Shown here piece by piece: positions 9,194 through 56,310 of a DNA stretch of 64,000 nucleotides. The notes under the pieces were generated by a model. It searched no databases. It was not told where the DNA came from and worked only from the letters and a program-made list of their open reading frames with translations. Every line of letters starts with the position of its first letter. Positions within the stretch are counted from its first letter, which is position 1. The position numbers were made by a program, and so were the translations under genes. Origin of the DNA: Chionoecetes opilio. Taxonomy: Eukaryota > Arthropoda > Malacostraca > Decapoda > Majidae. Location of the stretch: the NCBI GenBank assembly GCA_016584305.1, contig JACEEZ010013848.1:196501-260500 (forward strand), read 5' to 3'.

Positions 9194-9960
9194 CACACAA
9201 ACCTCGTTTTCCCGGACTAATAGGGGGGGAGCACTGGTCCGGGAACCGCAAAAGTCCGGGAATCGCAACAGTCCAGGAATTATCCCGATGCCATTACCCA
9301 CCCCCGGACGTTTATCCTACTCTAGTATTTACTGTCCGGCAACCGCCAATACCAACTACCCCGCCGTGGACTTTTACGTCCACTGAGCATGCTGCCACCT
9401 GGCGGGAGGCAGCAGAAAGTGTTCAATAGTCTCAAGAGACGTTCCTGCACCAGGGGCAGTACGGGTCAGGGGACTAACGGAGGCTGTGCAGGTGAACCGT
9501 GAGTGTCGTGTGTCCAAATGTCAACAATACGACCGCTGAGCATGCTGCCACCTGGCGGGAGGCAGCAGAAAGTGTTCAATAGTCTCAAGAGACATTCCTG
9601 CACAAGGGGCAGTGGGGGTCAGGGGGCTAACGGAGGCTGTGCAGGTGAACCGTGAGTGTCGTGTTTCCAAATGTAAACAATTCGACCGCTGAGGATGCTG
9701 CCACCTGGCGGGAGGCAGCAGAAAGTGTTCAATAGTCTCAGAGATGTTCCTGCACCAGGGGCAGTGGGAGTCAGGGGACTGACGGAGGCTGTGCAGGTGA
9801 ACCGTGAGTGTCGTGTGCCCAAATGTAAACAATACGACCGCTGAGCATGCTGCTACCTGGCGGGAGGCCAGCAGGCCTCCAACACTGACCAGGAGTGACA
9901 GGAGACGCTCGGACCGCCGGACAACTTTGTCAATTTACGACCAGCACCAGGCATTTCAAC

Positions 9961-11052: not shown

Positions 11053-11158
11053 TATATAGTCTGATGCCATTACCCACCCCTGGACGTTTATCCTACTCTA
11101 GTATTTACTGTCCGGCAACCGACAATATCAAGTACCCCGCCGCGGACTTTTACGTCCG

Positions 11159-11640
11159 CTGAGCATGCAGCCACCTGGCGGGAGGCAGCAGAAAGTGTTC
11201 AATAGTCTCAAGAGACGTTCCTGCACTAGGGGCAGTGGGGGTCAGGGGACTAACGGAGGCTGTGCAGGTGAACCGTGAGTGTCGTGTGCCCAAATGTAAA
11301 CAATACGACCACTGAGCATGCTGCCACCTGGCGGGAGGCAGCATAAAGTGTTCAATAGTCTCAGAAATGTTCTTGCACCAGGGGCAGTGGGAGTCAGGTG
11401 ACTGACGGAGGCTGTGCAGGTGAACCGTGAGTGTCGTGTGCCCAAATGTAAACAATACGACCGCTGAGCATGCTGCCACCTGGCGGGAGGCAGCAGAAAG
11501 TGTTCAATAGTCTCAGAAATGTTCTTGCACCAGGGGCAGTGGGAGTCAGGGGACTGACGGAGGCTGCAGGTGAACCGTGAATGTTGTGTGCCCAAATGTA
11601 AACAATGCGACTGCTGAGCATGCTGCCACCTGGCGGGAGG
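11159..11640 (-). repeat. 152-bp LINE-derived tandem array (array 2)
   Basis: Units start at about 11159, 11312, 11464 and 11613. They have the same leader, sequence and minus-strand coding (HTTLTVHLHSLRQSPDSHCP, then WCKNISETIEHF) as the array at 9383. One unit has lost 3 bp (spacing 149). It occupies the same place in the outer CACACAAACC element as array 1 does in the inner copy, so the array travels with the element. Confidence 0.8.
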
Positions 11641-12203
11641 CGCGGACACTGACCAGGGGTGACAGGAGACGTTCGGACCGCCGGACAACTTGGTCAATTT
11701 ACGAACAGGACCAGGCATTTCAACGTGTAAAAAAAAAAAAAAAAAAAAATTGCCCGAGACTGACAGACATATCCCCAGACCTCGGATTTTGTCCGGCAAA
11801 TCCGATATCCGGGAAATCGAGGTTTGTGTGTACTTTATACACGAAAACAAGGGATTTTGTTTATAAATAAGCATGCTTCATAGATATAGATATCCTAGAG
11901 AAGTGATTAGTGTACAAAAAATGTGGTGAAAGATGAAATATCGCTCTGACATCCACGAGTCGTGGTGGGAGCGACGTTGCCAAGTTGTAATAACAAACCA
12001 TGTGTGCTTTTGATAAACCTGATTTAGTGTGATATATTATATTTTTGCATTGTAATATATAGTAAAGAATAGAAAACTGTGTTAAGTGTATAAATGCAGC
12101 TACCACACCGACCGCAAGTACTGCAACACCACTGCAGTGAGTACATCTGACAACATCGCTTAGCAAGGCAGATCCCCGCGGGACCTTTAAACAAGGTGAT
12201 TTG

Positions 12204-15275: not shown

Positions 15276-17033
15276 TCACTCGGGGTCACAGCTGCTGTCG
15301 AAAATGTGAGTTGGCAGATCAGGGGAGATACTGCTCAGGAAGCTGCAACCAGACTCACTACTTGTAGAGGGCTGAGGTTTCCTGGCGTGTGGCTTTGGTT
15401 TGAAGAAGGCAGAAATTTTCGTTTGTTTCTGACTTGTACACTGCCTCTTGAAAACAGCATTTCTTATGTCTCTCATAGGTGAGTAGAATGCATCAAATTG
15501 GTGTTCCACCAACCCCTCCAAAGCCTTGTCCAGGTGAAAATGAAGCCGAGACAATTTCATGCTGGCTGGCTGGTCAGCTTCGTCATCACTGTCAGCTTCA
15601 ACAGCAGCCTCCGCCCCCTGCACAACACTAGCTGCTATGTCCTCTTCTGTCTGATGGTGATAGCCCAGAGCCCCAGCATCACTCTCCAGCCACTCAACTA
15701 TGTTCTCCTTGGTGACTTCGGGCTCACCACCTTTATGCACTGTTCCAGTGAAATCTTCTAAACCAAACCCAGTGAAGTCCACTTCTACTTCAGTCCCCTT
15801 CAGCAACTTGTTCCATGCATTGCTCAGGGTGGTGGACTTGAGCCCGTTCCACGCCTCAGCCCAGTTATACACAGTGTTGCGTAAGTTGTACGCTTTGAAA
15901 TTCGCAAGCGACTGAGCCCCCCTTGTGTCCTCTTGTCCCTCTTCCTCTTCTACCACAAGGCACTCCTCCAGCCGCTTGTTTCTGTAGTGTCGCTTGCAGG
16001 CCCCGATCACGCCTTGGTCCATGGGCTGGATTAGGGAGGTGGTGTTGGGTGGCATAAACATCACTTTAATTCTACCACCATGGGCCTCCAGTTCATCTGG
16101 GCTCGGATGTGCTGGGGCATTGTCAAGTAGGAGGATGGCCTTGACATTCTCCATTGTGATTGCCAGCACAGTTGTCTGGAAATTAATAACTGCAGGCACA
16201 AAAAAATGGTGGAACCACTCACTGGTGAGTTCACGGTTAAACCAGGCCGAGAGGTTGCCCCTGTAGATAACAGGCAGGTTACCCATGACGTTTTTGAGTG
16301 CCCGTGGTGTTTTTGCCTTACCTACAACCATGGGTTTCAGTCTGTGCGACCCGTCAGCGTTTCCACAGCACATAATGGAGATCTGATCCTTAGCTAATTT
16401 CCTCCCTGGAATGTGGCTTTCCTGCTTTGATGCCTGGGTGTTGGCAGGCATAGACCTAAAAAAAAAACCCGTCTCGTCAACGTTGTAGAGTTGGGAGAGA
16501 AGGAGGCCAGACTCCTGGATAGTTTTCTCCAATTTCTGACAGAAAGGCACCACCAATGCTTGATCAGCACTAGCACTCTCCCACCACTTTTCGGTTGGCT
16601 AGGCAGTGGCGACTCCGAAAAGTGAAGAGCCACCCATCACTAGCCTTGAAATTGGTCACCTTCAAGTGCTTGGCCAACCTTACAGCGGCGTTTTGGAGGT
16701 CAACCCCCTTACAGTAACTCCAACTGCTCGTTCCTGCTTGTACCACTTGTACACTGCTGCATCCAGGGAGACGTTCTTAACTGGCTTAATCCTCTTCTTG
16801 GTAGTCTTGGAGGTGCTTGGATCCTCCAAAGTAAGGGCCTGGGCACGAATCTTCTCTTTTATTTTCTTGATATCATAGAATGTGCTGGATTTGATATCAA
16901 ACTCAGCACAAATAGCACGTATGGACGCACCTGCATCCATCCTTGCCAGCACTTTCACCTTTTCCTGCAGGCTCAGGCTCTTCAATTTCATTCCCTTCCT
17001 GCTGGAGACACCCTTGCGTGATGGAGCTGACAT
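15276..17033 (-). pseudogene. Tigger/pogo transposase, frameshifted (CENP-B-like HTH + DDE)
   Basis: The protein start (17033, MSAPSRKGVSSRKGMKLKSL) leads into a CENP-B-type helix-turn-helix (KVKVLARMDAGASIRAICAE, FDIKSSTFYDIKK) and runs to about 16690. The catalytic frame (16556-15276, 426 residues) has YNVDETGFF (D27), ILLLDNAPAHPS (D145) and SLIQPMDQGVIGACKRHYR (D180), the three acidic residues of the DDE_1 family. An acidic/DSDDEADQ segment and a C-terminal basic tail (FFKPKPHARKP) follow. Between 16560 and 16700 the frame breaks at least twice, so the gene is inactive as read. The DDE core looks little decayed, so it is fairly young. Relatives include jerky/tigger-derived host genes, but the flanking TIRs make this a transposon. 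Confidence 0.9.
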
Positions 17034-17118
17034 CTTGATATACAGTACTGTATGATGTAATCCTAAAACACGTAAAATAGGTGGCAAAGTAAAGCAAAGG
17101 TCAGCAGCTTGCTGTATT

Positions 17119-17515
17119 CATAAAGCTTCTTAGCAACTCCTAGCAACTCCTAAGTTTAAGAGTTCCTAGAAGTTAGCTCGGGTGTTGCTATGAGTCATAG
17201 CAACTCATAGCAACTCCTACCTAGCAACTCACAGCAACACCCGAGCTATCTCTTAGGAACTCTTAAACTTAGGAGTTGCTAGGAGTTTAGAGTTGGACAG
17301 AGACCTGAGGACAGGTCTTCATAAAGCTTCTTAGCAACTCCTAGCAACTCCTAAGTTTAAGAGTTCCTAGGAATTAGCTCGGGTGTTGCTGTGAGTCATA
17401 GCAACTCATAGCAACTCCTACCTAGCAACTCACAGCAACACCCGAGCTAATTCCTAGGAACTCTTAAACTTAGGAGTTGCTAGGAGTTGCTAAGAAGCTT
17501 TATGAATACCTGTCC
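17119..17515. mobile_element. two tandem hairpin MITEs (CATAAAGCTTCTTAGCAACTCC)
   Basis: Copy 2 (about 17309-17515) is a near-perfect palindrome starting GGACAGGTCTTCATAAAGC and ending with its inverse. Inside are CTAGCAACTCCTAAGTTTAAG and GGGTGTTGCTGTGAGTC in both orientations. Copy 1 (about 17119-17289) is the same hairpin with a shortened right end. No coding sequence. They sit between the two head-to-head Tigger halves. Confidence 0.75.
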
Positions 17516-38266: not shown

Positions 38267-38594
38267 CGGATACCAACCTAACCATTACTGTCGGCGAGTT
38301 TTCCCGATTTGTGTAGGGACAAAAATATCGGTAGACGAGTACCATGCAGGTACCATGAGGCAAGGATGGGTAATATTACCGTGGTTATGCAACTTGTTTA
38401 TGGATGGAGTAATAAGATAAATCAAAGCAAAGGTTGGTGATGTTGGTATAGACTCAAGAGTATTCATTGGCTCGTCAAGTAACACTTAAACCATGATGTA
38501 GCACTACTTATTATGAGGAAAGACAACAAAAGGAACTCAATTAATAAGGTATTTTAATACTATCATAACCATGAACATGTACAGCCTACAAAGA

Positions 38595-38985
38595 GAAGAC
38601 TACGACGATGAAAAAAATTCGAGTTGTTTTGGGCGAAATTGATATTCCAGGTGCTATATTTCCGTGCTCGCTGATAACATAGAGAAGACCCGAGGTGATG
38701 GTTGATGTGCGAAGGCTTCTAAACCAGGAAAACAGTCACAGCAGAGTCTCATTAAGAAGTAAGCAAGTGGTAGGGACACATTACGTACCTACCAGTTGCT
38801 TACCTTTTGACGAGGCTCTGTTATGACTCTGTTTTCTTGGTTTAGAAGCCTCTGCACATCAGCCATTACCTCAGGTCTTCTCTATAGTGTTGTCAGCGAG
38901 AACAGAGCACAGTAATATAGCACCTGGAATATCAATTTCGCGCAAAATAACTCGAAATTCTTCCATCGCCGTAGTTTTCCCTTCG
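38595..38985. repeat. 390-bp inverted repeat (long hairpin)
   Basis: Left arm 38595-38780 (CGAGTTGTTTTGGGCG, GATATTCCAGGTGCTATA, GAAGGCTTCTAAACCAGG, AGCAAGTGGTAGG) is matched inverted at 38785-38985 (CCTACCAGTTGCTTACC, TTGGTTTAGAAGCCTC, TATAGCACCTGGAATATC). The centre is near 38782. It could be a foldback MITE; no TIR-flanking duplication was seen. Confidence 0.75.
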
Positions 38986-39115
38986 TAGGTCCACCCGCGG
39001 CGACCCCGCCTTATCCCCACAATGCACCGATGTAAACAAACCGTGACGTAGTTATGGGTAGGGTCCATTGTTTGGGAGCCTTCCTCCTCCGGCCGCTTCT
39101 TTGTACACTCCAGCT

Positions 39116-39235
39116 GTGTGTGTGTGTGTGTGTGTGTGCGTGTTTGTGTGCGTATGTGTTCTTATCTTACCTATTTGTACAAAAAAAAATAAAAAAACTG
39201 TGCCGTAATATATATATATATATTTTTTTTTGTTA
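39116..39235. repeat. (TG)n, A-run and (TA)n(T)n tracts
   Basis: TGTGTG (39116-39148), A-rich (39180-39198) and TA then T (39210-39230) microsatellites just outside the large palindrome. Confidence 0.9.
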
Positions 39236-39524
39236 TCACTACTTCCATGTTGCCTTATTACTAGGTCAGGGGGAAAATAAAACAAAAGTTGTGCAAAACT
39301 AATATATTGAAAACAACAAGAAAATCTATATTCCATCTTTTATATGATAAATACGAGAGCGGAAGGGAGTCTACCGCCACCGTCAGCCACCTGTGTCTGG
39401 GGGAACAAATAAAAAATTGTGAGCTATTCGGCTGTGATGATACTTTCTTGATTCGAATAGAATAAAATTATATCAAGTATAGGCGTCCAGTCTCTGGCCC
39501 CTTTGCTTTTGGCTCAGTTCTTAC

Positions 39525-39557
39525 GGCTGGAACGTGGCAGCGAGCCACGTTCCAGCC
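39525..39557. repeat. perfect 14-bp-stem hairpin
   Basis: GGCTGGAACGTGGC, five bases, then GCCACGTTCCAGCC. The same hairpin is in the other arm (53314-53346). Directly after it a unit of about 140-157 bp (TTACGCTAATTGCTCATTAA, GACAGCACTACTTGCATG) is tandemly duplicated (39565 and 39693). Confidence 0.85.
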
Positions 39558-40380
39558 AAATAACTCATTACGCTAATTGCTCATTAAGGGCTTGTTCTAC
39601 GCAAAAAAAATTGTTGCACAGACCCCCATTGATTTTGACAGCACTACTTGCATGTCAACTTTCAGCTCAATCCGACAATATTTAGGAGTAGTTTACGCTA
39701 ATTACTCATTAAGGGGTTGTTCTACGCAAAAAGTTTCATGCACAGAATCCCATTGATTTTGACAGCACTACTTGCATGTCAAATTTCAGCTCAATCCGAT
39801 AATATTTAGGAATAGTTATACACTTTTTGACTTAAACTTGGTTCCACGGGTCATATGGTAAGAAGCAGATCGCTTCGCTCGCTGCCAATGAAATTTTATT
39901 CTGGCGAACTACCTTCATTTATACGAAACTTTACACTCACAATTAATTTAGTTTCAATAAAACTTCTTTTTATACATGAAAATTAGACCTTTGAATCTAA
40001 GGGCCGTACTATTAAACCTTCCGCCCGGGCTGGCGATCGCCTGCCGATGCTCCGCCAGGCGAACGCCAGCCTCAGGAAATCCTTACTTTAAGTATGAGAG
40101 AGGAGAGCCCGCCACCAGCTACATATTTACTGAGGAGAAATCAGGGGTAATTATCAAGAGGTGCTTGACCGGACGGTAATTATAGAGATGGGTAAAAAAA
40201 AAAAAGGTGGATCGAGGAGAAAGTGTCGTGGCGAGGAGGTGACTGTCCTGATGACAATTGTCGCGAGGAGATAGGTGACTGGTGGCCGGGTGTAGGAGAA
40301 GGAGGAGAAGGAGGGTTACTTAAATTATCGTTCAGAGCCAATCGCTATTAAAAAAAAAAAAAAAATAATAATTACAACAG

Positions 40381-40740
40381 ATGGCGTCTCTTGTCAGTGT
40401 GCGCATCGTCTGCATGTGTACATTTGCTGGCCGGGAATTTGAGCACGTGGAGACCAGCAGGATGAAACCCCTCACAACACGTTGTCACCTGCGCATTCAT
40501 GAAGATTACATGTATTCCCACGCCTGTGAGTGTGATAGCCTCACCCGTCTTATACAGTGCTTATAATTTATGATCCAGCCTGGATTCCTCGCAGGCCTTA
40601 ACAACACCGAGACCAAGAACGCCAGGATGAGTGAACAAGAGCATTTCATTGATGAGGTCTGTGCAATATGGATAAGAAGGAACAACAATAGCATGTTTAT
40701 AATGTATTCCCTAAGGTCACAGGAAGGTAAGGACATCCGT
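40381..40740 (+). other. weakly gene-like segment duplicated in both palindrome arms
   Basis: Two short frames, MASLVSVRIVCMCTFAGREF (61 residues) and, from 40570, MIQPGFLAGLNNTETKNARM (about 59 residues ending at a GAAGGTAAGG that could be a donor). Codon use is not repeat-like, but no family is recognised. The inverted copy has a 5-nt deletion in the second frame (GAGCATTGATGAG near 49610), so at least one copy is dead. Confidence 0.2.
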
Positions 40741-41253
40741 AATAAGTGAACTTATAAAGTATCACTTTAGATCTTTCTAAAGTGAACTATGAATATGATT
40801 ATGAACATAACTAATAGGTAACTATAATTAGTACAGGCTTGTATGTTTCGGAGACATAACAACTGTGTGTATGGCACGATGCTGAATATTGTGTTACCAT
40901 GTTATGTACTTGTTATGTAGTTTTAATTGCCTAATTTTTTGCCAACGTTTTTCATGACATGTTTTCTCGTTATTAATTGCTTGTACTTATGTTAAATACA
41001 TACATTATGAAATACCTAGTCAATACTGGTTATGATGCATTTGTTTTTACCTTTCCTTACCTCACTAATAATCTTTTCTTCAGGAGAACCTTCCACTGTA
41101 CGAGTATTTGCCAGCCTTCCCTTATTTGATGCTCTATGAATTAAGTATGTTATGTTTTTGTATGTCCGTATGCTTCATGTATGCTGCCAAAAAATGAAGA
41201 TATATCTGCATGAGTTTACTCTCCACCTTGTAAATTGTGCAATATACATATAA

Positions 41254-41398
41254 GGCCTCTTCCATTTGTGCCCAAGCTGCATGAACCAGTTCTTTCAGTT
41301 CAGGGTTGGGTTCTGGGTTCAGGGTTGGGTTCGCGTGTCACAAATGGAACGCAAAAACCCCGTTTTTTGTTTACAAACATACTCAGCTGGCGAGGCAA

Positions 41399-41491
<93 letters not shown>

Positions 41492-41502
41492 GAGAGAGAG
41501 AG

Positions 41503-41560
<58 letters not shown>

Positions 41561-42131
41561 TAACGAGAGAGAGAGAGATAACGAGAGAGAGAAGAACGAG
41601 AGAGAGAGAGAACGAGAGAGAGAGAGAGAGAGAGTACGAGAGAGAGAGAGAGAGAGAGAGAAGAGAGAGAGAGATAACGAGAGAGAGAATAACGGAGAGA
41701 GAGAGATAACAAGAGAGAAGGGATATCAGCGAAGAGGAGATACGAGAGATAACGAGAGTAAGATAGACGAGAGATCTAACTCAGCTAGCTGCTATGTGAA
41801 GGGATCATATCACGTTTAAGATCGCGGGAACGCATGGGCTCCACCAGCCATGTATGCCTCTTTTATGCCGTCTGACATCCTCTCCGACTCGTGCATGCGG
41901 AAAACCCTTCACGATAAGAGAAATAGGGCCCAAGGCGACCATTGTTTGTTATGAACTGAAAACTCTACCCAAGCTACCCACCTCTCAATGTGAGTAGAGA
42001 AAGTTCACGGGTTTTGCTGAGTCACTACGCGCTTTGCCTCGGACCCAGGTTTTCGTGCGCAAATGGAACGCCTGAACTCTTGGGTTCCGTGAACTGGTTC
42101 TTGAAATGTCGCAAATGGAAGAGGCCTATAA
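41254..42131. mobile_element. 880-bp element in left arm only, TATAA duplication
   Basis: GGCCTCTTCCATTTGTG at the left inverts at the right (CGCAAATGGAAGAGGCC). The other palindrome arm has the uninterrupted site ACATATAAGGATTCC. TATAA flanks both ends. Inside is GGGTTGGGTTCTGGGTTCAG and a (GA)n tract of about 360 bp. No coding sequence; Harbinger-like or unassigned. Confidence 0.75.
41403..41765. repeat. (GA)n microsatellite with GATAACGAGA interruptions
   Basis: About 90 bp pure GA, then GA blocks broken by TAAC. Frames such as RERERERERE are artefacts. Confidence 0.97.
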
Positions 42132-42950
42132 GGATTCCATATTTTCATTTCACTTTCAGTGTTGTAATATGAATAATAATATAAGTACAATATTCTGCAT
42201 ATATAAAGTAAAATACATGTATGTAAAACATACCAGCTCACCCTAAAATATCATGCACTATAGTTACGCTTGGGCTGAACAGGTTGTGCTAAACGGGTTG
42301 ATAGTAGCTAAAGGTAAAGATGGGGTATATATATATAGAGAGAGATTATTACTATTCTTTTTTAAATACAGCATGCATTGTCGAAAAAAAACCAGTCGGA
42401 TGTTGTCAGGCTACTTGTCTGTTCTCCGTTGTTTGTTAAATACATAAATTTAGATGTGTTTTTTTTCCCCTACCCCCTCTGACTTCCACCTAACTAATGC
42501 AGACAGTTTAACTCCTAGAAAAAAATATGTAGCTACTACTTGAGAAAGTAGATAGTTGCTAACTGGTTATGTTCCTTCTGAACACTAAGTGTGAGGACAC
42601 AAAGAGTATACGAGACACTTCACAAACTAATTGGTTGCTAACCACAAAGGAAGTTAAATGGGAGAGTGTACTCCATAGAGACGCTAAAATCAAAGAACCA
42701 TTACCTTTTAATATGTTATATAAGGCTTTACCCACAATTTGCATGGGATTATATTCTTTCGAGATCAAGGATGATTATAAGATTTATGTTCTTTAATCTT
42801 TTTTCTAACATCTCTCAATCTGTTGTAAAAATTTCTCCCATCCTTCCTTTTTTTTTTTTTATCCCTACTATGAAGGGGGAGGAGCGTACAAAATTGGTAG
42901 GAGGGGTGGGGTGTAGGTATGTAGGAGAAAGTCGGGAAGTCTTATCGTAG

Positions 42951-42982
<32 letters not shown>
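42951..42982. repeat. poly-A tract
   Basis: A run of about 29 A in the left arm. In the right arm the matching place is a T-rich but diverged sequence (TTTTTTATTTTTTTTATT, about 48160-48187). Confidence 0.9.
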
Positions 42983-42983
<1 letters not shown>

Positions 42984-44539
42984 GGTCGACCACTTATGAT
43001 TTACCATGGTTATCGTTAAAAGAAGTGTGCGCTCCTTGTAACATGTGGCGTAGTATGAACATGTATATTCGCCACCAGAGTCACCGAAGTTCGGAGTATT
43101 CTTCAATCCTTCCAAATCATGTGTAGAAAAAAAAAGAGATTATATAAGACACTTGGATGGAGGATAGTGAAATGATGATTTAAAAGTAGGGGTTTTCAAC
43201 CACATGTAATATGAGGTGGATAGTAATACCCGGTTGAAGAGGAGAAAGAGGAAATGTATTATTTATAATCACCTCATATCAGAGACATTTTTCATGAATA
43301 AAAAAAAAATAATAATAAATAAATAAATACATAAACACAGTATATACTATAAATAGTATGATGGTGAGATAGAAAATGTAACAATTTTATCGAAATAAAA
43401 CCATGGTGATGTGTAAGGGTGTATGTGTGTGTTATGTCTGCAGTAGTTAAGCCCTTATAGTCTCCCAATCTCAATACTGTGTAATGGGGAAAAGTAATCA
43501 CCCAGGATAATAATGACAGGCTAGAATTAACAGGTATTATCAATTCTTACTTTAAAACTTAACAAATAATTACCAGATATGAATACCCGTTATGAATCAT
43601 GGAAAAAGATAATAATGAAGACTGAGTTCTTGGAGTCTCCAAACAACAAGCAGGAAGATTAATCACTGTTTCCACAGAACCAGTTAGTGTAGATGAAGAA
43701 CAATAAAAGAAAACAGAAATAAAAATATACATAGAGGCAGTAAGAAAATGAAGCAATCATAAAGAAAACACCCCCTCCCCTCACAAAAAAAAAAAAAAAT
43801 AGTTTTCACTCGAAAACAAGCGATACCTAAATCCCTCTAGACAGGCAGAGAAAAGGACTGGGAAAACATACTCACGAGACTAGTAAATCCACGGCGATGA
43901 CACAGACACACACAAAAAAAAAGGCAGATAATGAATAGAGAAAATCGCTTAAAAGGTTAGAAAACAATGTATCAAATCTTGGAAGGTATCCATACCTACG
44001 TCCTCGCCTGATAAATTTCCAAGTCCCACTGCCTGGCCTTGAGGTGTCGGTGCTAACGACCTCAAATCAAGATGGCGCTGTGTAAAAAGTTAGCCAGTTA
44101 CTGAATTAGAATCACGCCACCATTGGTAACAACAGAGGCCGGGGTTTAGAGGACAACAGTGAATAAGATAGACCGCTCGCAATATTATATTCCAGATGGA
44201 TATTGGCTTTGTTTTTCCTTTTTTTTTTTTTCATTGCGCTAAAGAAAAAAAAAATAGGACGAAGAAGAATTGCGTTGGGCACCCCTGGGTGGGTGGTACA
44301 TACATGGATGAGTTGACCGGATGAAGGGGAAATCGGGGGATGATTATTATCGACGTGTGATGAAGAGAGAAAGAGCAAGAGGTAATATAATTATTGTTTT
44401 GAGCGCTACTGTCATCCTTTCCTCAATCACTTTTCTCTGACAGATTCACTTTTAGACTGTTTTCTTTAGACAAAAAACTAAAAAAAAAAAAAGGATCCCT
44501 TCTCTCGTACCATAAAAGGATAAAAAAATAAAAAAATAA

Positions 44540-44818
44540 AAAATAAAGCCGTCCATAGACGGGAAGGGGGGGGGGTCTTACTAAACAAAGCCTTACAATA
44601 GGTTAGGTTAGGTTAGGTCCGTCCATTGACGGGAGGGGGCGGGGGGGTCTTACTGAACAAACCCTTACAATAGGTACCCCCCCCTCCCGTCAATGAACGG
44701 ACCTTACCTAACCTAACCTAACCTAACCTTACCTTACCTTACCTAACCTAACCTAACCTATTGTAATGCTTTGTTCAGTAACACCCCCCCCCCCCTTTCC
44801 GTCTATGGACGGCTTTAT
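44540..44818. repeat. palindrome centre with inverted GGTTA / TAACC tracts
   Basis: Left half: GTCCATAGACGGGAAGGGGG, GGTTAGGTTAGGTTAGG (44601-44617), GTCCGTCCATTGACGGGAGG. Right half: CCCTCCCGTCAATGAACGG, then CCTTACCTAACCTAACC and more (44700-44762), then TTTCCGTCTATGGACGGC. The fold axis is near 44679 with essentially no spacer. Orientation is (TTAGG) toward (CCTAA). Confidence 0.85.
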
Positions 44819-45852
44819 TTTATTTTTTATTTTTTTTCATTTTGTGGTACGAGCGAGGGGATCCTTTTTTTTTTTTTTAGTTTTTTGTCTAAAGAAAACA
44901 GTCTAAAAGTGAATCTGTCAGAGAAAAGTGATTGAGGAAAGGTTGACAGTAGCGCTCAAAACAATAATTATATTACCTCTTGCTCTTTCTCTCTTCGTCA
45001 CACGTCGATAATAATCATCCCCCGATTTCCCCTTCATCCGGTCAACTCATCCATGTATGTACCACCCACCCAGGGGTGCCCAACGCAATTCTTCTTCGTC
45101 CTATTTTTTTTTTCTTTAGCGCAATGAAAAAAAAAAAAAGGAAAAACAAAGCCAATATCCATCTGGAATATAATATTGCGAGCGGTCTATCTTATTCACT
45201 GTTGTCCTCTAAACCCCGGCCTCTGTTGTTACCAATGGTGGCGTGATTCTAATTCAGTAACTGGCTAACTTTTTACACAGCGCCATCTTGATTTGAGGTC
45301 GTTAGCACCGACACCTCAAGGCCAGGCAGTGGGACTTGGAAATTTATCAGGCGAGGACGTAGTGCCGACCGGGGTAATTTGGTCCTGGTTTTGACAAACT
45401 TTGATCTAGTTTCCATATCTATTGAAATAAACAAACAAAAAGTTAATACAATCATAGGAGGGTCACTACCTATATGTCATTAAAGTTTGAACAAATTTCC
45501 ATTATAGCTCTGTTAGCAATACACTGCGAAGTGCGGACCGCATTGTTACACTAAATGGGGTAAATCGGACCTAACTCTGGGGTAAATTGGTCATATATAT
45601 ATATATAAAAAAAAAAAAATCTTAAAAATTTGACAAACCTCCAAAAACTGAAACAACATGTCATACCATGCCCATGGACACTATCAAACATTATGTGAGC
45701 TGTTCTTCACATGCTCTGGGGAGGCGGAAAAGATGACCAACACGCACACGTTTGGGTTCCAGTCTTTGAGTTCCTAGTCTTTCTTCTTTTTCTAGGTCTA
45801 TGTTAGTTTTTCTTTTATAATTTCTAAGCATTGTTACTTAATTTAGTAATAC

Positions 45853-46330
45853 TTTACACTAGGGCCAGAATTCCCTACACAATTGGGAGTATGGTTTCTG
45901 TTTACCTTATTGGATTCTAGGAAACATTCTCTCTATGAGCTTCCGTCACAAAGCACTTCTTTCGGAGATATAAGATGTTTTTAATAAGAAGGAGATCCGA
46001 GTGTATAGGAGATTTGAAAATTAAACTAACCTAACCCCACCTTTTGACTCACTAACCTAACCTAACACACGCTTTAACCTCCAAACTAATGTCAAATCTG
46101 CATTAAAAAAGTGTCCGCGGCAAGGGAAGAACAGAGGCGATGCAGGTCACAAGAGGAAGAAGAGTCAGGCGCACGTAAACACTTGGCTCTCGCCTCCCTA
46201 TGAACATGTCATTATCTTCGAAAGTAATGATTTGCGACGGAAACTCATAGAGAAAATGTTTCCTAGAATTAAATAAGGTAAACAGAACCACACTCCCAAT
46301 TGTGTAGGGAATTTCGGTCCTAATATAAAA
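45853..46330. mobile_element. MITE with about 110-bp TIRs (CACTAGGACCGAAATTCC), copy 1
   Basis: Left AGAATTCCCTACACAATTGG, GGTTTCTGTTTACCTTAT and GCTTCCGTCACAAAGCAC is matched inverted at 46215-46325. The core has CTAACCTAACC and GTGTCCGCGGCAAGG. A sister copy is at 51518-52003, and a lone end at 46476-46535. Confidence 0.75.
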
Positions 46331-46475
46331 TAATACCGTTAGGTTACGTAATCAATGTCCATGTTAGGTTAGTTAACTAGCAGGGAGGTATGAGTGGGCA
46401 TAGCCCCCCAGTTATGTCAGGAGAGTATTGGTTTATAGGAAGTATTGGTTGAAACTGCACATTTACCGTATCCAT

Positions 46476-46535
46476 TAAGGTAAACAGAAATCATTCTCCC
46501 AATTGTGTAGAGAATTCTGGTCCTTGAGTAAAAAT
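46476..46535. mobile_element. solo end of the GACCGAAATTCC MITE
   Basis: AAGGTAAACAGAAATCATTC, then CCCAATTGTGTAGAGAATTC and TGGTCC, is one terminus of the MITE family, without its partner. Confidence 0.6.
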
Positions 46536-49500
46536 TACCCTTAATTATATACCAGCACCTTAATCTAATTCCATATTAGCATTCAACAACCTGAAACAAA
46601 AGAAACAAGTGCAAATAAGCAGTTAATCCTCACCGTGATATGCCGTGGGGGGTACATTACACTGGGTCCAATTTACCCCGCGAGTGTTTTTGTCACCGGG
46701 GTAAATACGGACCCAAACTGAGCATTGATCATACGAAAATGAGACAAGATAGAGCATTTTTGATATTTTCATGTTAAAGTAGAGGAAAAACACTATATAT
46801 ACGCTTATTTACAAGAATGTACTCCGTCTCGTATTTGAATCCCATGAAAGTTCGCCAAATCAGCTGATTTTGTAAACAAACTTTGCCGCAACTTTTTTTG
46901 CTGTCATTTTACTCATTTTCTATTTTGGTTTCTGGGTTCAGTTACATATCGATATTTATATTCATATTAATACTATAAATGTTAAAATGGTTGTTTTACT
47001 ACATGGGATATTCAAAACTGTTACACTCTTATTTATATTGAAACAAACACCAAAGCAAAAATGGCGGTCCGAATAGAACCGGTCCGTTGGAAGGACCAAA
47101 TTACCCCGGTCGGCACTAGGTATGGATACCTTCCAAGATTTGATACATTGTTTTCTAACCTTTTAAGCGATTTTCTCTATTCATTATCTGCCTTTTTTTT
47201 TGTGTGTGTCTGTGTCATCGCCGTGGATTTACTAGTCTCGTGAGTATGTTTTCCCTGTCCTTTTCTCTGCCTGTCTAGAGGGATTTAGGTATCGCTTGTT
47301 TTCGAGTGAAAACTATTTTTTTTTTTTTTTTGTGAGGGGAGGGGGTGTTTTCTTTATGATTGCTTCATTTTCTTACTGCCTCTATGTATATTTTTATTTC
47401 TGTTTTCTTTTATTGTTCTTCATCTACACTAACTGGTTCTGTGGAAACAGTGATTAATCTTCCTGCTTGTTGTTTGGAGACTCCAAGAACTCAGTCTTCA
47501 TTATTATCTTTTTCCATGATTCATAACGGGTATTCATATCTGGTAATTATTTGTTAAGTTTTAAAGTAAGAATTGATAATACCTGTTAATTCTAGCCTGT
47601 CATTATTATCCTGGGTGATTACTTTTCCCCATTACACAGTATTGAGATTGGGAGACTATAAGGGCTTAACTACTGCAGACATAACACACACATACACCCT
47701 TACACATCACCATGGTTTTATTTCGATAAAATTGTTACATTTTCTATCTCACCATCGTCTTCTCTTCCACCACCACTGTGTTATTTATAGTATATACTGT
47801 GTTTATGTATTTATTTATTTATTATTAATTTTTTTTTATTCTTGAAAAATGTCTCTGATATGAGGTGATTATAAATAATACATTTCCTCTTTCTCCTCTT
47901 CAACCGGGTATTACTATCCACCTCATATTACATGTGGTTGAAAACCCCTACTTTTAAATCATCATTTCACTATCCTCCATCCAAGTGTCTTATATAATCT
48001 CTTTTTTTTTCTACACATGATTTGGAAGAGATTGAAGAATACTCCGAACTTCGGTGACTCTGGTGGCGAATATACATGTTCATACTACGCCACATGTTAC
48101 AAGGAGCGCACACTTCTTTTAACGATAACCATGGTAAATCATAAGTACTGGTCCACCTATTTTTTTATTTTTTTTATTTTTTTTATTTGGATCTACGATA
48201 AGACTTCCCGACTTTCTCCTACATACCTACACCCCACCCCTCCTACCAATTTTGTACGCTCCTCCCCCTTCATAGTAGGGATAGAAAGAAAAAAAAGGAA
48301 GGATGGGAGAAATTTTTACAACAGATTGAGAGATGTTAGAAAAAGATTAAAGAACATAAATCTTATAATCATCCTTGATCTCGAAAGAATATAATCCCAT
48401 GCAAATTGTGGGTAAAGCCTTATATAACATATTAAAAGGTAATGGTTCTTTGATTTTAGCGTCCCTATGGAGTACACTCTCCCATTTAACTTCCTTTGTG
48501 GTTAGCAACCAATTAGGTTGTGAAGTGTCTCGTATACACTTTGTGTCCTCACACTTAGTGTTCAGAAGGAACATAACCAGTTAGCAACTATCTACTTTCT
48601 CAAGTAGTAGCTACATATTTTTTTCTAGGAGTTAAACTGTCTTCATTAGTTAGATGGAAGTCAGAGAGGGTAGGGGAAAAAAAACACTTCTAAATTTATG
48701 TATTTAACAAACAACGGAGAACAGACAAGTAGCCTGACAACATCCGACTGGTTTTTTTTCGACAATGCATGCTGTATTTAAAAAAGAATAGTAATAATCT
48801 CTCTCTATATACCCCATCTTTACCTTTTGCTACTATCAACCCGTTTAGCACAACTTGTTCAGCCCAAGTGTAACTATAGTGCATGATATTTTAGGGTGAG
48901 CTGGTATGTTTTACATACATGTATTTTACTTTATATATGCAGAATATTGTAGACTTATATTATTTTTCATATTACAACACTGAAAGTGAAATGAAAATAT
49001 GGAATCCTTATATGTATATTTCACAATTTACAAGGTGGAGAGTAAACTCATGCAGATATATCTTCATTTTTTGGCAGCATACATGAAGCATACGGACATA
49101 CAAAAACATAACATACTTAATTCATAGAGCATCAAATAAGGGAAGGCTGGCAAATACTCGTACAGTGGAAGGTTCTCCTGAAGAAAAGATTATTAGTGAG
49201 GTAAGGAAAGGTAAAAACAAATGCATCATAACCAGTATTGACTAGGTATTTCATAATGTATGTATTTAACATAAGTACAAGCAATTAATAACGAGAAAAC
49301 ATGTCATGAAAAACGTTGGCAAAAAATTAGGCAATTAAAACTACATAACAAGTACATAACATGGTAACACAATATTCAGCATCGTGCCATACACACAGTT
49401 GTTATGTCTCCGAAACATACAAGCCTGTACTAATTATAGTTACCTATTAGTTATGTTCATAATCATATTCATAGTTCACTTTAGAAAGATCTAAAGTGAT

Positions 49501-50342
49501 ACTTTATAAGTTCACTTATTACGGATGTCCTTACCTTCCTGTGACCTTAGGGAATACATTATAAACATGCTATTGTTGTTCCTTCTTATCCATATTGCAC
49601 AGACCTCATCAATGCTCTTGTTCACTCATCCTGGCGTTCTTGGTCTCGGTGTTGTTAAGGCCTGCGAGGAATCCAGGCTGGATCATAAATTATAAGCACT
49701 GTATAAGACGGGTGAGGCTATCACACTCACAGGCGTGGGAATACATGTAATCTTCATGAAAGCGCAGGGGACAACGTGTTGTGAGGGGTTTCATCCTGCT
49801 GGTCTCCACGTGCTCAAATTCCCGGCCAGCAAATGTACACATGCAGACGATGCGCACACTGACAAGAGACGCCATCTGTTGTAACTATTTTTTTTTTTTT
49901 TTTTTTTAATAGCGATTGGCTCTGAACGATAATTTAAGTAACCCTCCTTCTCCTCCTTCTCCTACACCCGGCCACCAGTCACCTATCTCCTCGCGACAAT
50001 TGTCATCAGGACAGTCACCTCTTCGCTACGACACTTTCTCCTCGATCCACCTTTTTTTCTAAGCGGTTATCACACGAGGCGTTTCGTCGGACTGTTTCGT
50101 CGAACCAAACAGGCATTTGGCTTGACCTGTTTGACAACACACTAGCACACGGTTGGGCCAACCGCTTCACCCAACAATAACAAACAAAGATGAAAGCGAT
50201 GACAGGTGGAGGCGCGGAGATTCGTTGTTAATGTTTTAACTTTAGGGGTTATATATATATACGTAGCTACTGGTGATGAAAAGGGAGGAGGTTGTTGTTA
50301 GAAGAGAACGGCGACATATGAAGACGCGTTCATGTGGGCTAA

Positions 50343-50985
50343 GGGCTATATTCAAGAATGCTCGTCAAATCCCGGCCAGTGGAGATTCTCTACCGTCGTA
50401 CCTCCACTGGTGACTTCTACAAGAAATCCCCGACTGGTGGATATTTGACAGGCGTACCAACACAAGCGAGCCCAAAGCGGCATCAGTGTTTTGACTGTTT
50501 TATACATATCTAATACATTTTACTAGTGAAATAGATCATTTCTGACATTAAAATAATAGCTTAGTTAGTGTTCGCCACTTGTCTGAGGCGTTGTGCAGAA
50601 AAAATGGGCCCGAGTTATGCTTGCGAGTACATTTGAACGGCTCGCCGCCACTGCTCCACACAATGGCCGACCTCCACCTGCCGCCGCCGCCCGGCTTCCT
50701 CACAACTTCACATACCTATATAAGGCCTCCTGGACCAGATTTTACCTTAATGATGACACGTGTGCATTCACAAGGTATGCATGTTACTCTCGATTGTGTT
50801 GAAAACTCATCTGTAATGGTCTGGGAAGAAATAGGAATGAATAAGTGCACAGCGGGATGAAGGTGGGATCTGCATGTTGTCGCGAATCAGCTGACTCAAG
50901 CCTCCACCCGTTGCGTTACCTCCTGTAGATTCTTGTATACCGATTCGCGATGTAACGGGTGGAGAAAAGTTCTTGAATATAGCCC
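50343..50985. mobile_element. Harbinger-like MITE GGGCTATATTCAAGAA (TAA duplication)
   Basis: GGGCTATATTCAAGAA and its inverse TTCTTGAATATAGCCC at the ends, with TAA at 50340-50342 and 50986-50988. A TAA target and GGG terminus suit PIF/Harbinger. A GC-rich internal segment (50620-50710, CCGCCGCCGCCCGG) makes short frames that I do not trust. Confidence 0.75.
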
Positions 50986-51517
50986 TAAATGGGTTATAGT
51001 GGACGAGAACTGCGCGGTCGATCGCTACCGCCGTTACCACTTAACAGATTATATTTTGCTTAGTATAATGTGCAGTATTAATCCATTTCTGTATGCGTAA
51101 CCTTTAAAACATATACATATTGAAGAAATTATAAGAGTTGTCTAATAATGCATAGACACACCCCGACCTGCCTCCCACCCACCCCCATCCCTTAGGAGGT
51201 TAGGTTAAGTTTCGGTTATGTTAATATTATCGTCAGGGGGTCGAAGGGGTCCGAGCCCCTCCCGTTAGAACCTGCGGGGCGGGGCACACTTGTTTTCGTA
51301 TAATTCCGTCACTACGTCCCTGGTTTCTGAGACACTTGACTATTATTTCCTGGCCAAGTTTTACATCTTTTTCTGATGGAGATACATTGTTATCAATGAA
51401 AAGGTGACCCTAGGATTTGGTGAGAAAAAAACAACTTTTTAACAGGTTTCCGGGAAATAAAAATATCTTCATCTGAAAAAGCAACAGTTTCTGGCCAAGT
51501 AAATGTAGGGTAAATGT

Positions 51518-52003
51518 TTACACTAGGACCGAAATTCCCTACACAATTGGGAGTGTGGTTTCTGTTCACCTTAATAGATTCTAAGAAACATTTTCTCTAT
51601 GAACTTCCGTCGCAAATCACTACTTTCGGAGATATAAGACGTTTTTAATAGGAAGGAGTGTATATGAGATATGAAAATTAAACTAACCTAACCCCACCTT
51701 TAGACTCGCTGATCTAACCTAACCTAACCTAGTCCCAAGCATTAACCTCCTAACTAAAGCCAAATCCTCATTAAAAAGTGTCCGCGGCAAGGAAAGAACA
51801 GATCGAGGCGATGCAGATCACAAGAGGAAGAAGAGTGTGGCGGACGTAAACTCTTGTCTCGCCTCCTTTGAACAACATGGCATTATCTCCAAAAGTAATG
51901 ATTTGCGATGGAAGCTCACAGAGAGAATGTTTCCTAGAATCCAATAAGGTAAACAGAAACCACACGCCAAATTGTGTAGGGAATTTCGGTCCTATAGTGT
52001 AAA
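51518..52003. mobile_element. MITE with long TIRs (CACTAGGACCGAAATTCC), copy 2
   Basis: Left TTTACACTAGGACCGAAATT is matched inverted at the right (TTTCGGTCCTATAGTGTAAA). The long terminal region is shared with the copy at 45853. Confidence 0.8.
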
Positions 52004-53606
52004 ATAATACCATATGTAGTCAGTCTCAGAAAAGGACCGCGCAGTCCTTGTCTATTTTTACCTGATCTTGTTATTACAGGTGGCCTTTTCTTCATAGGCC
52101 AGGCCTTTGAACCGTCTGCTCCTGTAGAATAAAAAAAAAAAACACAAAAGGGAAACAAAAGAAAACAAAACTACATACAAGCATGCAGTTCTATTGTCTA
52201 TTTGTCATACACCACATTCTTTCCAAACTCTTTCACTGTCTCAATCATCCGCCCGGGCCCGGCCCTTGTCTCACCACACAGTCCTAGCAGCAATAACATC
52301 CATTCTCTTCCTATCCTTTCAACCACCTCATTCATTTCACATCCCATTTCAGTCGAAACCACACGCATCATTTCCATTCTCTCCCCGTTATACTTCTCAG
52401 ATCTCATATTCTATAATTCTACTAGTAGTAATCATTTTACCGCAAAATGTAAACACATCAAATCAACTTCATATTTTTGAAAATCTATCACGTATATAAT
52501 ATAGACTGATCTGTATTAATTTTACTGTAACGTATTATATGATGGTGTTCATTTCAATGCTTAATTATTGCTAACACTATTTATAACTTACAGAAAAAGT
52601 ATAGACTTATTTTGACCGCAGAGTATGTTCGACGAAATGTGCAACATTTTGTATAATTTCACGAAACCATTTCGGCGAAATGACCCTCGAAGTTCGACCA
52701 AACAGTCCAACCAAATGGCAAGTTCGACGAAACAGTCCGACGAAACTTACCGTGTGATAGCCGCTTTACCCACCTCTATAATTACCGTCCGGTCAAGCAC
52801 CTCTTGATAATTACCCCTGATTTCTCCTCAGTAAATATGTAGCTGGTGGCGGGCTCTCCTCTCTCATACTTAGATTCAAAGGTCTAATTTTCATGTATAA
52901 AAAGAAGTTTTATTGAAACTAAATTAATTGTAAGTGTAAAGTTTCGTATAAATGAAGGTAGTTCACCAGAATAAAATTTCATTGGCAGCGAGCGAAGCGA
53001 GCTGCTTCTTACCATATGACCCGTGGAACCAAGTTTAAGTCAAAAAGTGTATAACTACTCCTAAATATTATCGGATTGAGCTGAAATTTGACATGCAAGT
53101 AGTGCTGTCAAAATCAATGGGATTCTGTGCATGAAACTTTTTGCGTAGAACAACCCCTTAATGAGTAATTAGCGTAAACTACTCCTAAATATTGTCGGAT
53201 TGAGCTGAAAGTTGACATGCAAGTAGTGCTGTCAAAATCAATGGGGGTCTGTGTAAATTTTTTTTTTGCGTAGAACAAGCCCTTAATGAGTAATTAGCGT
53301 AATGAGTTATTTGGCTGGAACGTGGCTCGCTGCCACGTTCCAGCCGTAAGAACTGAGCCAAAAGCAAAGGGGCCAGAGACTGGACGCCTATACTTGATAT
53401 AATTTTATTCTATTCGAATCAAGAAAGTATAATCACAGCCGAATAGCTCACAATTTTTTATTTGTTCCCCCAGACACAGGTGGCTGACGGTGGCGGTAGA
53501 CTCCCTTCCGCTCTCGTATTTATCATATAAAAGATCGAATATAGATTTTCTTGTTGTTTTCAATATATTAGTTTTGCAACAAACTTTTTGTTTTATTTTC
53601 CCTGAT

Positions 53607-53665: not shown

Positions 53666-54058
53666 GCGAAAGTGTGTCTGTCTGTCTGTCTGTCTGTCTG
53701 TGTGTGTGTGTGTGTGTGTGTGTTGTGGTATAGGTTCCGCCCCCCTTGGCGCAATCACCTCATATGGCACATTTTTGGAACCGGGTTGACCAGGGGAAGG
53801 TCATAAGCCCACTTATGAGATGATTCGATCACTTTTTTTTTTCTTTTTTTTTAGCAGCCTATTAGCGATAATTGTGAAAAAAAAAGTGGGTTGCGAGAAT
53901 TGAGGAAACCTTGATGTAGGGTGATGGGTAATGGGTGAGTGAATGGGTGGGGTGATGGGTAATGGGTGTGGGGTGATGGGTGAGTGAATGGGTGGGGGTG
54001 ATGGGTTGGGGGTGAGGGGTGATGGGTGAGGGAATAGATGGGGGGTGATGGGTAATGG
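53650..54058 (+). mobile_element. Helentron-like element, copy 2 (3'-truncated)
   Basis: ATAATATTAAGCGAAAGTGTG, (TCTG)n (53680-53700), the shared body (GGTTCCGCCCCCC, GGGAAGGTCATAAGCCC, AGCAGCCTATTAGCG) and the GTGAATGGGTGG minisatellite. It ends at the start of the next copy without a 3' hairpin. Confidence 0.65.
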
Positions 54059-54092
54059 TAAATATAAGCGAAAGTGTGTCTGTCTGTCTGTC

Positions 54093-54130
<38 letters not shown>

Positions 54131-55610
54131 TGGTATAGGTTCCGCCCCCCGTGGCGCAATCACCTCATATGGCACATTTTTGGAACTGGGTTGACCAGGG
54201 GAAGGTTTTAAGCCCAATTATGAGATGATCCGATCATTTTTATTTTTTTTAGCAGCCTATTAGCGATAATTGTGAAAAAAAAAGTGGGTTGCGAGAATTA
54301 GAGAGAACTGAAACTCGAGAAATGCCAGTGGTCGCTGGCAGTTTTAACTCAAAGGTTGGTCTACTGTGTTTTGGCTCCGCGACTAATATTTTTCATAAAT
54401 TAATTTCGCGACAAACATTGATGCACCGCATCTGAATACCAAAAAATATAGTTCTTCTGTTGTTCTACTAATTATATGGATGACATTCATTACGATGGAA
54501 CGTTCTATAATAGCAATTTAATGCAAATTACTCGCCTCGAGTAGCAATTAGCTTAATATATTTTTTACATGTATATTGTGGCATGTAAAATTTGGGTGAT
54601 GTTCACACTGTTTTCTAAGACAGTACTGCTGCGTCTGGCAAACGCTTGTCAAAATACAATAAGCAATGCCTTGGAAAAACGAAGAATAAAGAATGCCGAA
54701 ATCGGCTTGTTGCTGCGACAATGTAGGTTATAATTGTGGAGGCGACACGCCGCGGCGGGGAGTGGTGGGCGGGGAGATTGTGGCGGGGAGATTGAATCAA
54801 AACATTGCCACTTCACGCGTCGACTCATTGCACTTCCAGGCTTTCTATCTGATTGATACACAATAATAACAGGAAAATATGACTGCCTAGGTATAGATAA
54901 CTTCTAAACATACGTTATGACTAATAATATCATAGAGTAACATTTACCTCGCCTCCTCAACTATAACCTACTTGGTTATTGGTTAAATGCATGTTTTACA
55001 GACTCAGGCTTCTATACAATATACATATAGAAGAAAATCGTTCTTAAAATTATACTTTTGTGTTTTAAGTGCAGTGGAATAAGCCCATATTTTTCTTTCA
55101 AGTTGACCAACTTTTCACCAATTGTGAGTTAAACTGCCAGCGACCACTGGCATTTCGGAGTTGCAGTTCTCTCTAATTGAGGAAACCTTGATGTAGGGTG
55201 ATGGGTAATGGGTGAGTGAATGGGTGGGGTGATGGGTGATGGGTGAGTGAATGGGTGGGGGTGATGGGTTGGGGGTGATGGTGATGGGTGAGGGAATAGG
55301 TGGGGGGTGATGGTAATGGGTGAGTGAATGGGTGTGTGTGATGGGTAATGGGTGAGTGAATGGGTGGGGGGTGATGGGTAATGGGTGAGTGAATGGGTGG
55401 GGGGTGATGGGTAATGGGTGAGTGAATGGGGGGGGTAATACATACATTTCTACATCCATGATTTCAGGAAAGTTAGAAGGGGCTATCTGGAGAGTCCGTG
55501 TTTGGTGGGCCGAAGGCCACCAAACACAGGTGGTGGGCCGAAGGCCCTACACCAATAGCCCCCCGCAGGAGCTAGCCAAAAAGTCCGCCCGGAGGGGCTT
55601 TGCGGCTAGT
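54059..55610 (+). mobile_element. Helentron-like element, copy 3, with an 875-bp insertion
   Basis: The 5' end AAATATAAGCGAAAGTGTG, (TCTG)n, a body, then an insertion (54300-55174). It continues with minisatellite (55195-55435), a hairpin GTGTTTGGTGGGCC-GAAGGCCACCAAACAC (55498-55527), and the 3' hairpin and GCGGCTAGT (55575-55610). Complete apart from the insertion. Confidence 0.65.
54300..55174. mobile_element. 875-bp element AGAGAGAACTG, AATT duplication
   Basis: AGAGAGAACTGAAACTC, AATGCCAGTGGTCGCTGGC and AGTTTTAACTCA are matched inverted at 55105-55174. AATT at 54296-54299 and 55175-55178. The neighbouring Helentron copy shows the empty site GCGAGAATTGAGG, which proves the insertion. No coding sequence; a 4-bp AATT target does not fit the common superfamilies. 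Confidence 0.85.
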
Positions 55611-56310
55611 ATAATAATATAAGCGAAAGTGTGTCTGTCTGTCTGTCTGTGTGTTTTAGTGTGTGGTATAGGTTCCGCCCCCGTGGCGCAAACACCTCAT
55701 AGGGCACATTTTTGGAACCGGGGTTGACCAGGGGAGGTCATAAGCCACTATGAGATGACCCGTTTCACTTTTTTTTTTTTTTTTAGCAGCCTATTAGCGA
55801 GAATAGTGAAAACAAAAGTGGGTTGCAGAATTGAGGAGCCTTGAGTAGGGGTAGGGTGATGGTTAATGGGTGAGTGAATGGGTGGGGTGATGGGTAATGG
55901 GTGGGGGGTGAGGGGTGAGGAATTTGGGTGGGGGGTGATGGGTTGGGGGTGATGGGTGATGGGTGGGGGAATAAAATGGGGGGTGATGGGTAAGGGGTGA
56001 GTGAATGGGTGGGGTGGTGAGGGGTAAGGGGGTGAGTGAATGGGTGGGGGGTGATGGGTAATGGGTGAGGGAAATGGGTGGGGGGTGATGGGTAATGGGT
56101 GAGTGAATGGGTGGGGGGATGGGTAATGGGTGGGGTGAATGGGTGGGGGGGTGATGGGTAATGGGTGAGTGAATGGGTGGGGGTGATGGGTAATGGGTTG
56201 AGTGAATGGGTGTGGGGTTGATGGGTAATGGGTGAGTGAATGGGTGGGGGGTGATGGGTAATGGGTGAGGGGAATGGGTGGGGGGTGATGGGTAATGGGT
56301 GAGTGAGCCT
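55611..56310 (+). mobile_element. Helentron-like element, copy 4 (3'-truncated)
   Basis: It starts ATAATATAAGCGAAAGTGTG immediately after the CTAGT end of copy 3, so the two are head-to-tail. (TCTG)n, body, then a long GGGTGAGTGAATGGGTGG minisatellite (55853-56305). It ends abruptly at GAGTGAGCCTCGCGG. Confidence 0.65.

Follow-up and report, generated by a model that had tools for sequence, protein, structure and literature searches.

Polintons, or Mavericks, are thought to replicate like adenoviruses, and to our knowledge direct evidence for this is thin. In the adenovirus SYREC genome and in adenovirus mini-chromosomes, a palindrome made of other DNA is capped on either side by the termini of a protein-primed replicon, and foldback elements, such as FB of Drosophila and Galileo, have very long inverted repeats, non-coding sequence and variable centers. 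Mavericks are described as having 6-bp target duplications, (AGT)2 or (AG)3 end motifs and a protein-primed PolB, with terminal inverted repeats of 46-1447 bp in vertebrates (PMC8097293). A duplication of 6 bp is given for Polintons and also for IS3EU/GingerRoot elements, the latter with TA..TA and occasionally TG..CA ends (PMC10045372). A stretch of 64,000 nucleotides of the decapod Chionoecetes opilio (assembly GCA_016584305.1, contig JACEEZ010013848.1, positions 196,501 to 260,500 of the forward strand), hereafter referred to as the window, contains a giant palindrome with arms that extend over several kilobases. With a probability of about 70%, this palindrome is an end-truncated, non-autonomous and fully palindromic derivative of a Polinton/Maverick, devoid of genes and moved in trans. 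Members of its family show 6-bp target duplications and AGT-type ends, which point to Polintons, and have an end in common with a copy that contains a protein-primed PolB frame.

A preliminary description of the window had already reported the palindrome, and both self-BLAST of the window and alignment of the arms reproduce it where it was claimed. The left arm, delimited by these two analyses and by family comparison, occupies 39264..44646 (+) and the right arm 44677..53604 (-), both including secondary insertions; the right arm stops at an (AT)n run and not at the outer sequence of the family. Self-BLAST revealed four inverted pairs of blocks with 97-99% identity (43996-44618/44741-45362, 42127-43998/47117-49012, 40199-41255/49006-50058, and 39271-40001/52869-53602). 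In the arm alignment, which reaches slightly beyond both outer ends, 4361 bases are identical and 85 differ, with 23 gaps and with four insertions (2704 and 1757 bp in the right arm, 878 and 91 bp in the left arm). The arms are about 98% identical over the aligned bases, an inverted match far beyond chance. The sums of anchor coordinates on which the palindrome had been proposed hold within a few bases, as do the four insertions; the core sum of 89,358 was obtained again, displaced by the additional TTAGG repeats of the right arm (about 35-40 bp), and the left-arm insertion given as about 98 bp is present with a size of 91 bp in the arm alignment.

The true axis lies near 44661, within an asymmetric loop of 30 nt (44647..44676) located between a G-run and a C-run, so that the palindrome, described previously as spacer-less, is nearly but not strictly so. 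The axis is adjoined by a short (TTAGG)n array in the left arm (44601..44618, +) and by a (CCTAA)n array in the right arm (44701..44760, -). The loop is recognizable in all eight other centers compared; the nine centers, that of the window included, have it in common. The central 175 nt, taken as single-stranded DNA, show a much stronger fold than shuffled sequences (z -10.7). A search of Rfam gave 0 matches.

The window palindrome is one member of a dispersed family of giant palindromes and not a local oddity. This family was found by searching the window's own genome (1.94 Gb; all counts from DNA searches are lower bounds) with segments of the arm. The outer 738 bp of the arm gave at least 52 genome matches (the best 40 of 2374 candidates being scored), several of them as inverted pairs on one contig, and the segment near the axis gave at least 42 (the best 40 of 121 candidates being scored); in the latter search, each of seven contigs holds an inverted pair (C10691, C6321, C19557, C1490, C16329, C12929, and C10121). 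Twenty stretches of up to 10 kb each were examined, some of them on contigs that stop within the stretch. Seven of these (L009, L010, L011, L012, L017, L020, and L028) match themselves over long distances in inverted orientation, the arms measuring about 1.7 to 4.8 kb, and the others contain a single arm, short inverted matches or pieces. The copy on C6321 (L009) is palindromic throughout, with arms 97.9% identical, whereas altered or asymmetric centers are present in L010, L015 and L017, and in L051 the axis region is joined directly to an outer end. Judging from their sequences, L017 and L020 are probably one locus assembled twice; their interpretation as a propagated sub-family with a shared center junction was rejected, as the flanks are also shared (~84%). 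L019 and L024 may still represent such a sub-family.

Comparison of the copies relocated the ends of the element. The CAGGGGG... sequence at 39266 and 53604, which had been taken for a transposon terminus, is internal, since other copies run on outward with shared sequence for about 1.2 kb and end with 5'-AGTAGAGTACGATGAGCCAGTC. In a hand recount from which the window copy and duplicate entries for an end were excluded, 23 of 27 ends have CACTACTTCCATG(T)AGCCTTATTACTAG and (AT)n in common beyond the supposed terminus; of the remaining four, one contains N, one is out of range and two are rearranged. Blocks of (TG)n and (CT)n are shared still further out. A sharp boundary, 5'-AGTAGAGTACGATGAGCC, was defined from five aligned ends (both of C6321, both of C13643 and one of C13873), and the terminal 22-mer occurs exactly 38 times on 34 contigs of the genome, the reversed control giving 0. 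The number of insertion sites is lower than 38, as the two ends of an element count twice and some contigs share their flank (C7760/C3768/C16085, and C20330/C15658, the latter not an exact match). Perfect 6-bp target duplications flank 4 of the 5 copies in which both ends could be read, namely those on C6321 (11,371 bp, AATGCC), C13643 (10,327 bp, CTAGTG), C12289 (9,998 bp, CTCACA), and C16271 (7,553 bp, TTGGAA). The window copy is without both true ends, being cut at microsatellites, (TG)n on the left and (AT)n on the right. On the left it retains an outer remnant common to other copies (39117..39263), composed of (TG)n, TTATCTTACCTATTTGTAC.. and (AT)n, and lacks the outermost ~1 kb with the AGTAGAG terminus; no match to the outer 878 bp of the family was found in this copy, save for a CT run inside its 878-bp insertion.

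The family is not an autonomous Polinton, as no recognized genes are present in the arm frames scanned. In the arm of L009/L029 no frame exceeds 167 aa, the longest being microsatellite translations, and a Pfam scan of six L009 arm frames gave no match above the cut-off; likewise, three frames of the window (in the right arm, in an insertion and outside the element) had none at the cut-off. The alternative of coding arms was not supported by frame lengths or by the Pfam scan. A link to polymerase-bearing elements was provided by the PF03175 (PolB) profile, whose control matched in 0 of 14 genomes; in the window's own genome it gave 20 matches, distributed over 18 contigs. The best match (C18838:31644-32453) is part of an 813-aa open frame and lies 4.0 kb inside a family terminus at C18838:27674. 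This terminus shares 97% identity with a C6321 end in its outer 136 bp, and 86% with the C17818 copy over 589 bp. This PolB piece matched DNA_pol_B_2 (E 4.3e-23) and a PHROG DNA polymerase (2e-9); no relative was retrieved from IMG/VR, and the PDB sequences gave one meaningless match (E 0.04). The C18838 terminus (L059:1-75) sits directly in a (TA)n run.

The history of the arms was addressed by comparing four arm segments (S1-S4), with rows retained when segment coverage exceeded 85% and with L020 omitted from the pair tests as a probable duplicate; low-quality contigs add noise to this comparison. Arms of the same copy were closer to each other than in random pairings in S1 (27 of 20000 pairings as good, five copies), S2 (6 of 20000, six copies), and S3 (186 of 20000, four copies). 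Over S1-S3 the window copy has 24 private substitutions common to both arms vs 26 in one arm only, and other copies have 0-8 common to both. The divergence between arms varies among copies from 0.2% to 8% per segment, the arms of L011, L012 and L028 being strongly diverged. In the four copies with side assigned from the asymmetric loop, distances between copies are equal for like and unlike sides (0.0586/0.0585, 0.0494/0.0501, and 0.0539/0.0536), so that the arms do not form two lineages, and distances within a copy are smaller (0.0285, 0.0391, and 0.0351). The arms seem, on these comparisons, to be equalized from time to time, and closeness within a copy with no memory of side suggests re-equalization through a hairpin.

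Other explanations can be considered in light of this evidence. A cut-and-paste foldback element (FB/MULE/hAT/P-like) unrelated to Polintons, with a PolB neighbor that is coincidental or has nested ends, is unlikely. Such elements typically show giant inverted repeats and no polymerase gene, and the occurrence of family ends on only one of the 18 PolB contigs is consistent with this origin; however, the duplications are of 6 bp and not of the 7-11 bp left by FB, MULE, hAT and P-like elements. The 6-bp duplications of IS3EU/GingerRoot are combined mostly with TA..TA ends, whereas the ends of the family are AG..CT, and only ~0.002 chance neighbors would be expected for 20 PolB matches (a rough estimate from 40 termini, 5 kb for each, and a genome of 1.94 Gb). 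The preliminary view of a giant foldback element was right as to mobility and foldback-like structure, but the ends and the duplication length fit a Polinton and not the known foldback families. The palindromes might also be immobile inverted duplications that arose in the chromosome through fold-back synthesis at breaks, with gene conversion between the arms maintaining their similarity. This would account for the tendency of the arms of a copy to be similar, and a break or a telomere-like origin could be reflected in the TTAGG arrays next to the axis. This possibility is improbable considering the common ends, common loop and target duplications at unrelated sites, as well as the 0.2% to 8% divergence across copies and the confinement of insertions to one arm.

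Hardly credible is an assembly fold-back joining two haplotypes, in spite of the fact that head-to-head haplotypes of a heterozygous genome would likewise show unequal insertions and that some loci resemble a single site represented on more than one contig (L017/L020; C7760/C3768/C16085; C20330/C15658). At several loci whose flanks are unrelated, inverted termini and matching target duplications enclose the same palindrome, and the arms of the window copy run into different flanks. The earlier conclusion that the structure is genuinely genomic is upheld, an artifact being excluded because other palindromic copies possess inverted termini and 6-bp target duplications; the independent insertions on which that conclusion had been based could not by themselves exclude head-to-head haplotypes.

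The derivation from a Polinton/Maverick also has evidence weighing against it. The connection with PolB consists of one copy and one end; the exact terminal 22-mer is present only once on C18838, and the sequence which C18838 shares with the family is limited to the outer ~0.6 kb. The other 17 PolB contigs are without the exact 22-mer and absent from the scored terminus matches (the best 40 of 127 candidates). Peptidase_C5 was not found in the genome with a profile whose control matched in 0 of 14 genomes. In C10121, one of the five copies with both ends read, the duplications are unequal (TACAGG on the right, about ATACGG on the left, where the end is mutated). The family arms, of about 5.7 kb, exceed the published inverted repeats of vertebrate Mavericks, and the terminus AGTAGA starts with AGTAG and is not exactly the (AGT)2 or (AG)3 published for Mavericks. 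With regard to equalization, S4, the innermost segment, does not pass the pairing test (1362 of 20000, three copies), just 14 of 36 arms have their partner as the closest row, and other copies show little or none of the homogenization that is clear in the window copy.

If the family does derive from a Polinton/Maverick, a cycle can be hypothesized in which both the polymerase and the integrase would come in trans from an autonomous Polinton. Once displaced from the palindrome, a single strand would fold into a hairpin with one ordinary terminus, and protein-primed copying of this hairpin round the loop would produce a duplex palindrome, which the Polinton integrase would insert leaving a 6-bp duplication. 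The arms would periodically be made alike, either through mismatch repair in the hairpin or because the palindrome is re-formed from one arm, and would then diverge in the chromosome. Taken further, the family could be a heritable "snap-back" Polinton satellite, an 11-kb self-complementary replicon with a hairpin single strand and one terminal protein-primed origin, re-symmetrized in each cycle; this proposal is tentative and perhaps somewhat doubtful.

The secondary insertions in the window arms are absent from the sister arm and from the C6321 copy, and by their sequence they look like later, ordinary transposon insertions. In the left arm, 39999..40089 corresponds to the 91-bp insertion and 41256..42127 to that of ~0.88 kb (878 bp), which contains an (AG)n array. 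Inspection by eye of the latter revealed short mirror-image ends, GGCCTCTTCCATTTG / CAAATGGAAGAGGCC, with a TATAA duplication, and no inverted pair reaching 18 bp was reported within it by the repeat finder. In the right arm, the 1.76-kb insertion (1757 bp, 45363..47119) has perfect terminal inverted repeats of 24 bp with GTAG/CTAG flanks, and the 2.7-kb insertion (2704 bp, 50059..52768) has 45-bp terminal inverted repeats with 89% identity.

Various other repeats were detected in the window. A 426-aa open frame (15276-16556, -) looks like a putative Tigger/pogo-type DDE transposase. A dispersed repeat at 4688-5228, of which a 96% copy is located ~3 kb beyond the palindrome of C6321 on its right side, includes a frame (4776-5231) that we take to resemble the end of a long interspersed nuclear element (LINE) reverse transcriptase. 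Minisatellite blocks of GGGTGATGGGTAATGGGTGAG type are located at 575-1044, 53688-54307 and 55175-56306, the one near the window start having the opposite orientation to the blocks around 54-56 kb. A ~153-bp tandem repeat forms two arrays (9375-9874 and 11151-11641) that are ~90-95% alike, and inverted repeats of ~400 bp at 17114-17515 and 38585-38989, ~80-90% self-complementary, are possibly miniature inverted-repeat transposable elements or small foldback elements.

In the accessible portions of the open-licence literature on Polintons (crustacean, non-autonomous and fold-back included) and on palindromic protein-primed genomes, no palindromic Polintons were found described. Palindromes of this kind are expected to be unstable and to break assemblies, and may for that reason be under-reported. 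If the interpretation is correct, palindromes with Polinton ends and re-equalized arms would constitute a natural record of a replication intermediate, and the family would also record satellites that parasitize Polintons. A snap-back satellite, if it exists, would be the germ-line counterpart of the symmetric recombinants of adenoviruses and of self-complementary adeno-associated virus genomes.

Among the known systems, foldback elements are not known to have arms as long as those of the family, which is further distinguished by its 6-bp duplications and Polinton-like ends. Unlike adenovirus SYREC, the family is integrated in a genome assembly in many copies, and a comparable mechanism may only be hypothesized for it. 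Teratorn, a piggyBac-herpesvirus element of fish, is likewise a giant virus-linked element with long inverted repeats, but is described as having a unique region, 18-bp terminal inverted repeats and a piggyBac-like transposase that is active (PMC6431247). From Polintons/Mavericks the family differs in having no recognized genes and in that the whole element is one palindrome; in common with them it has 6-bp target duplications and inverted ends starting with AGT, and its ends are shared with a PolB-bearing copy.

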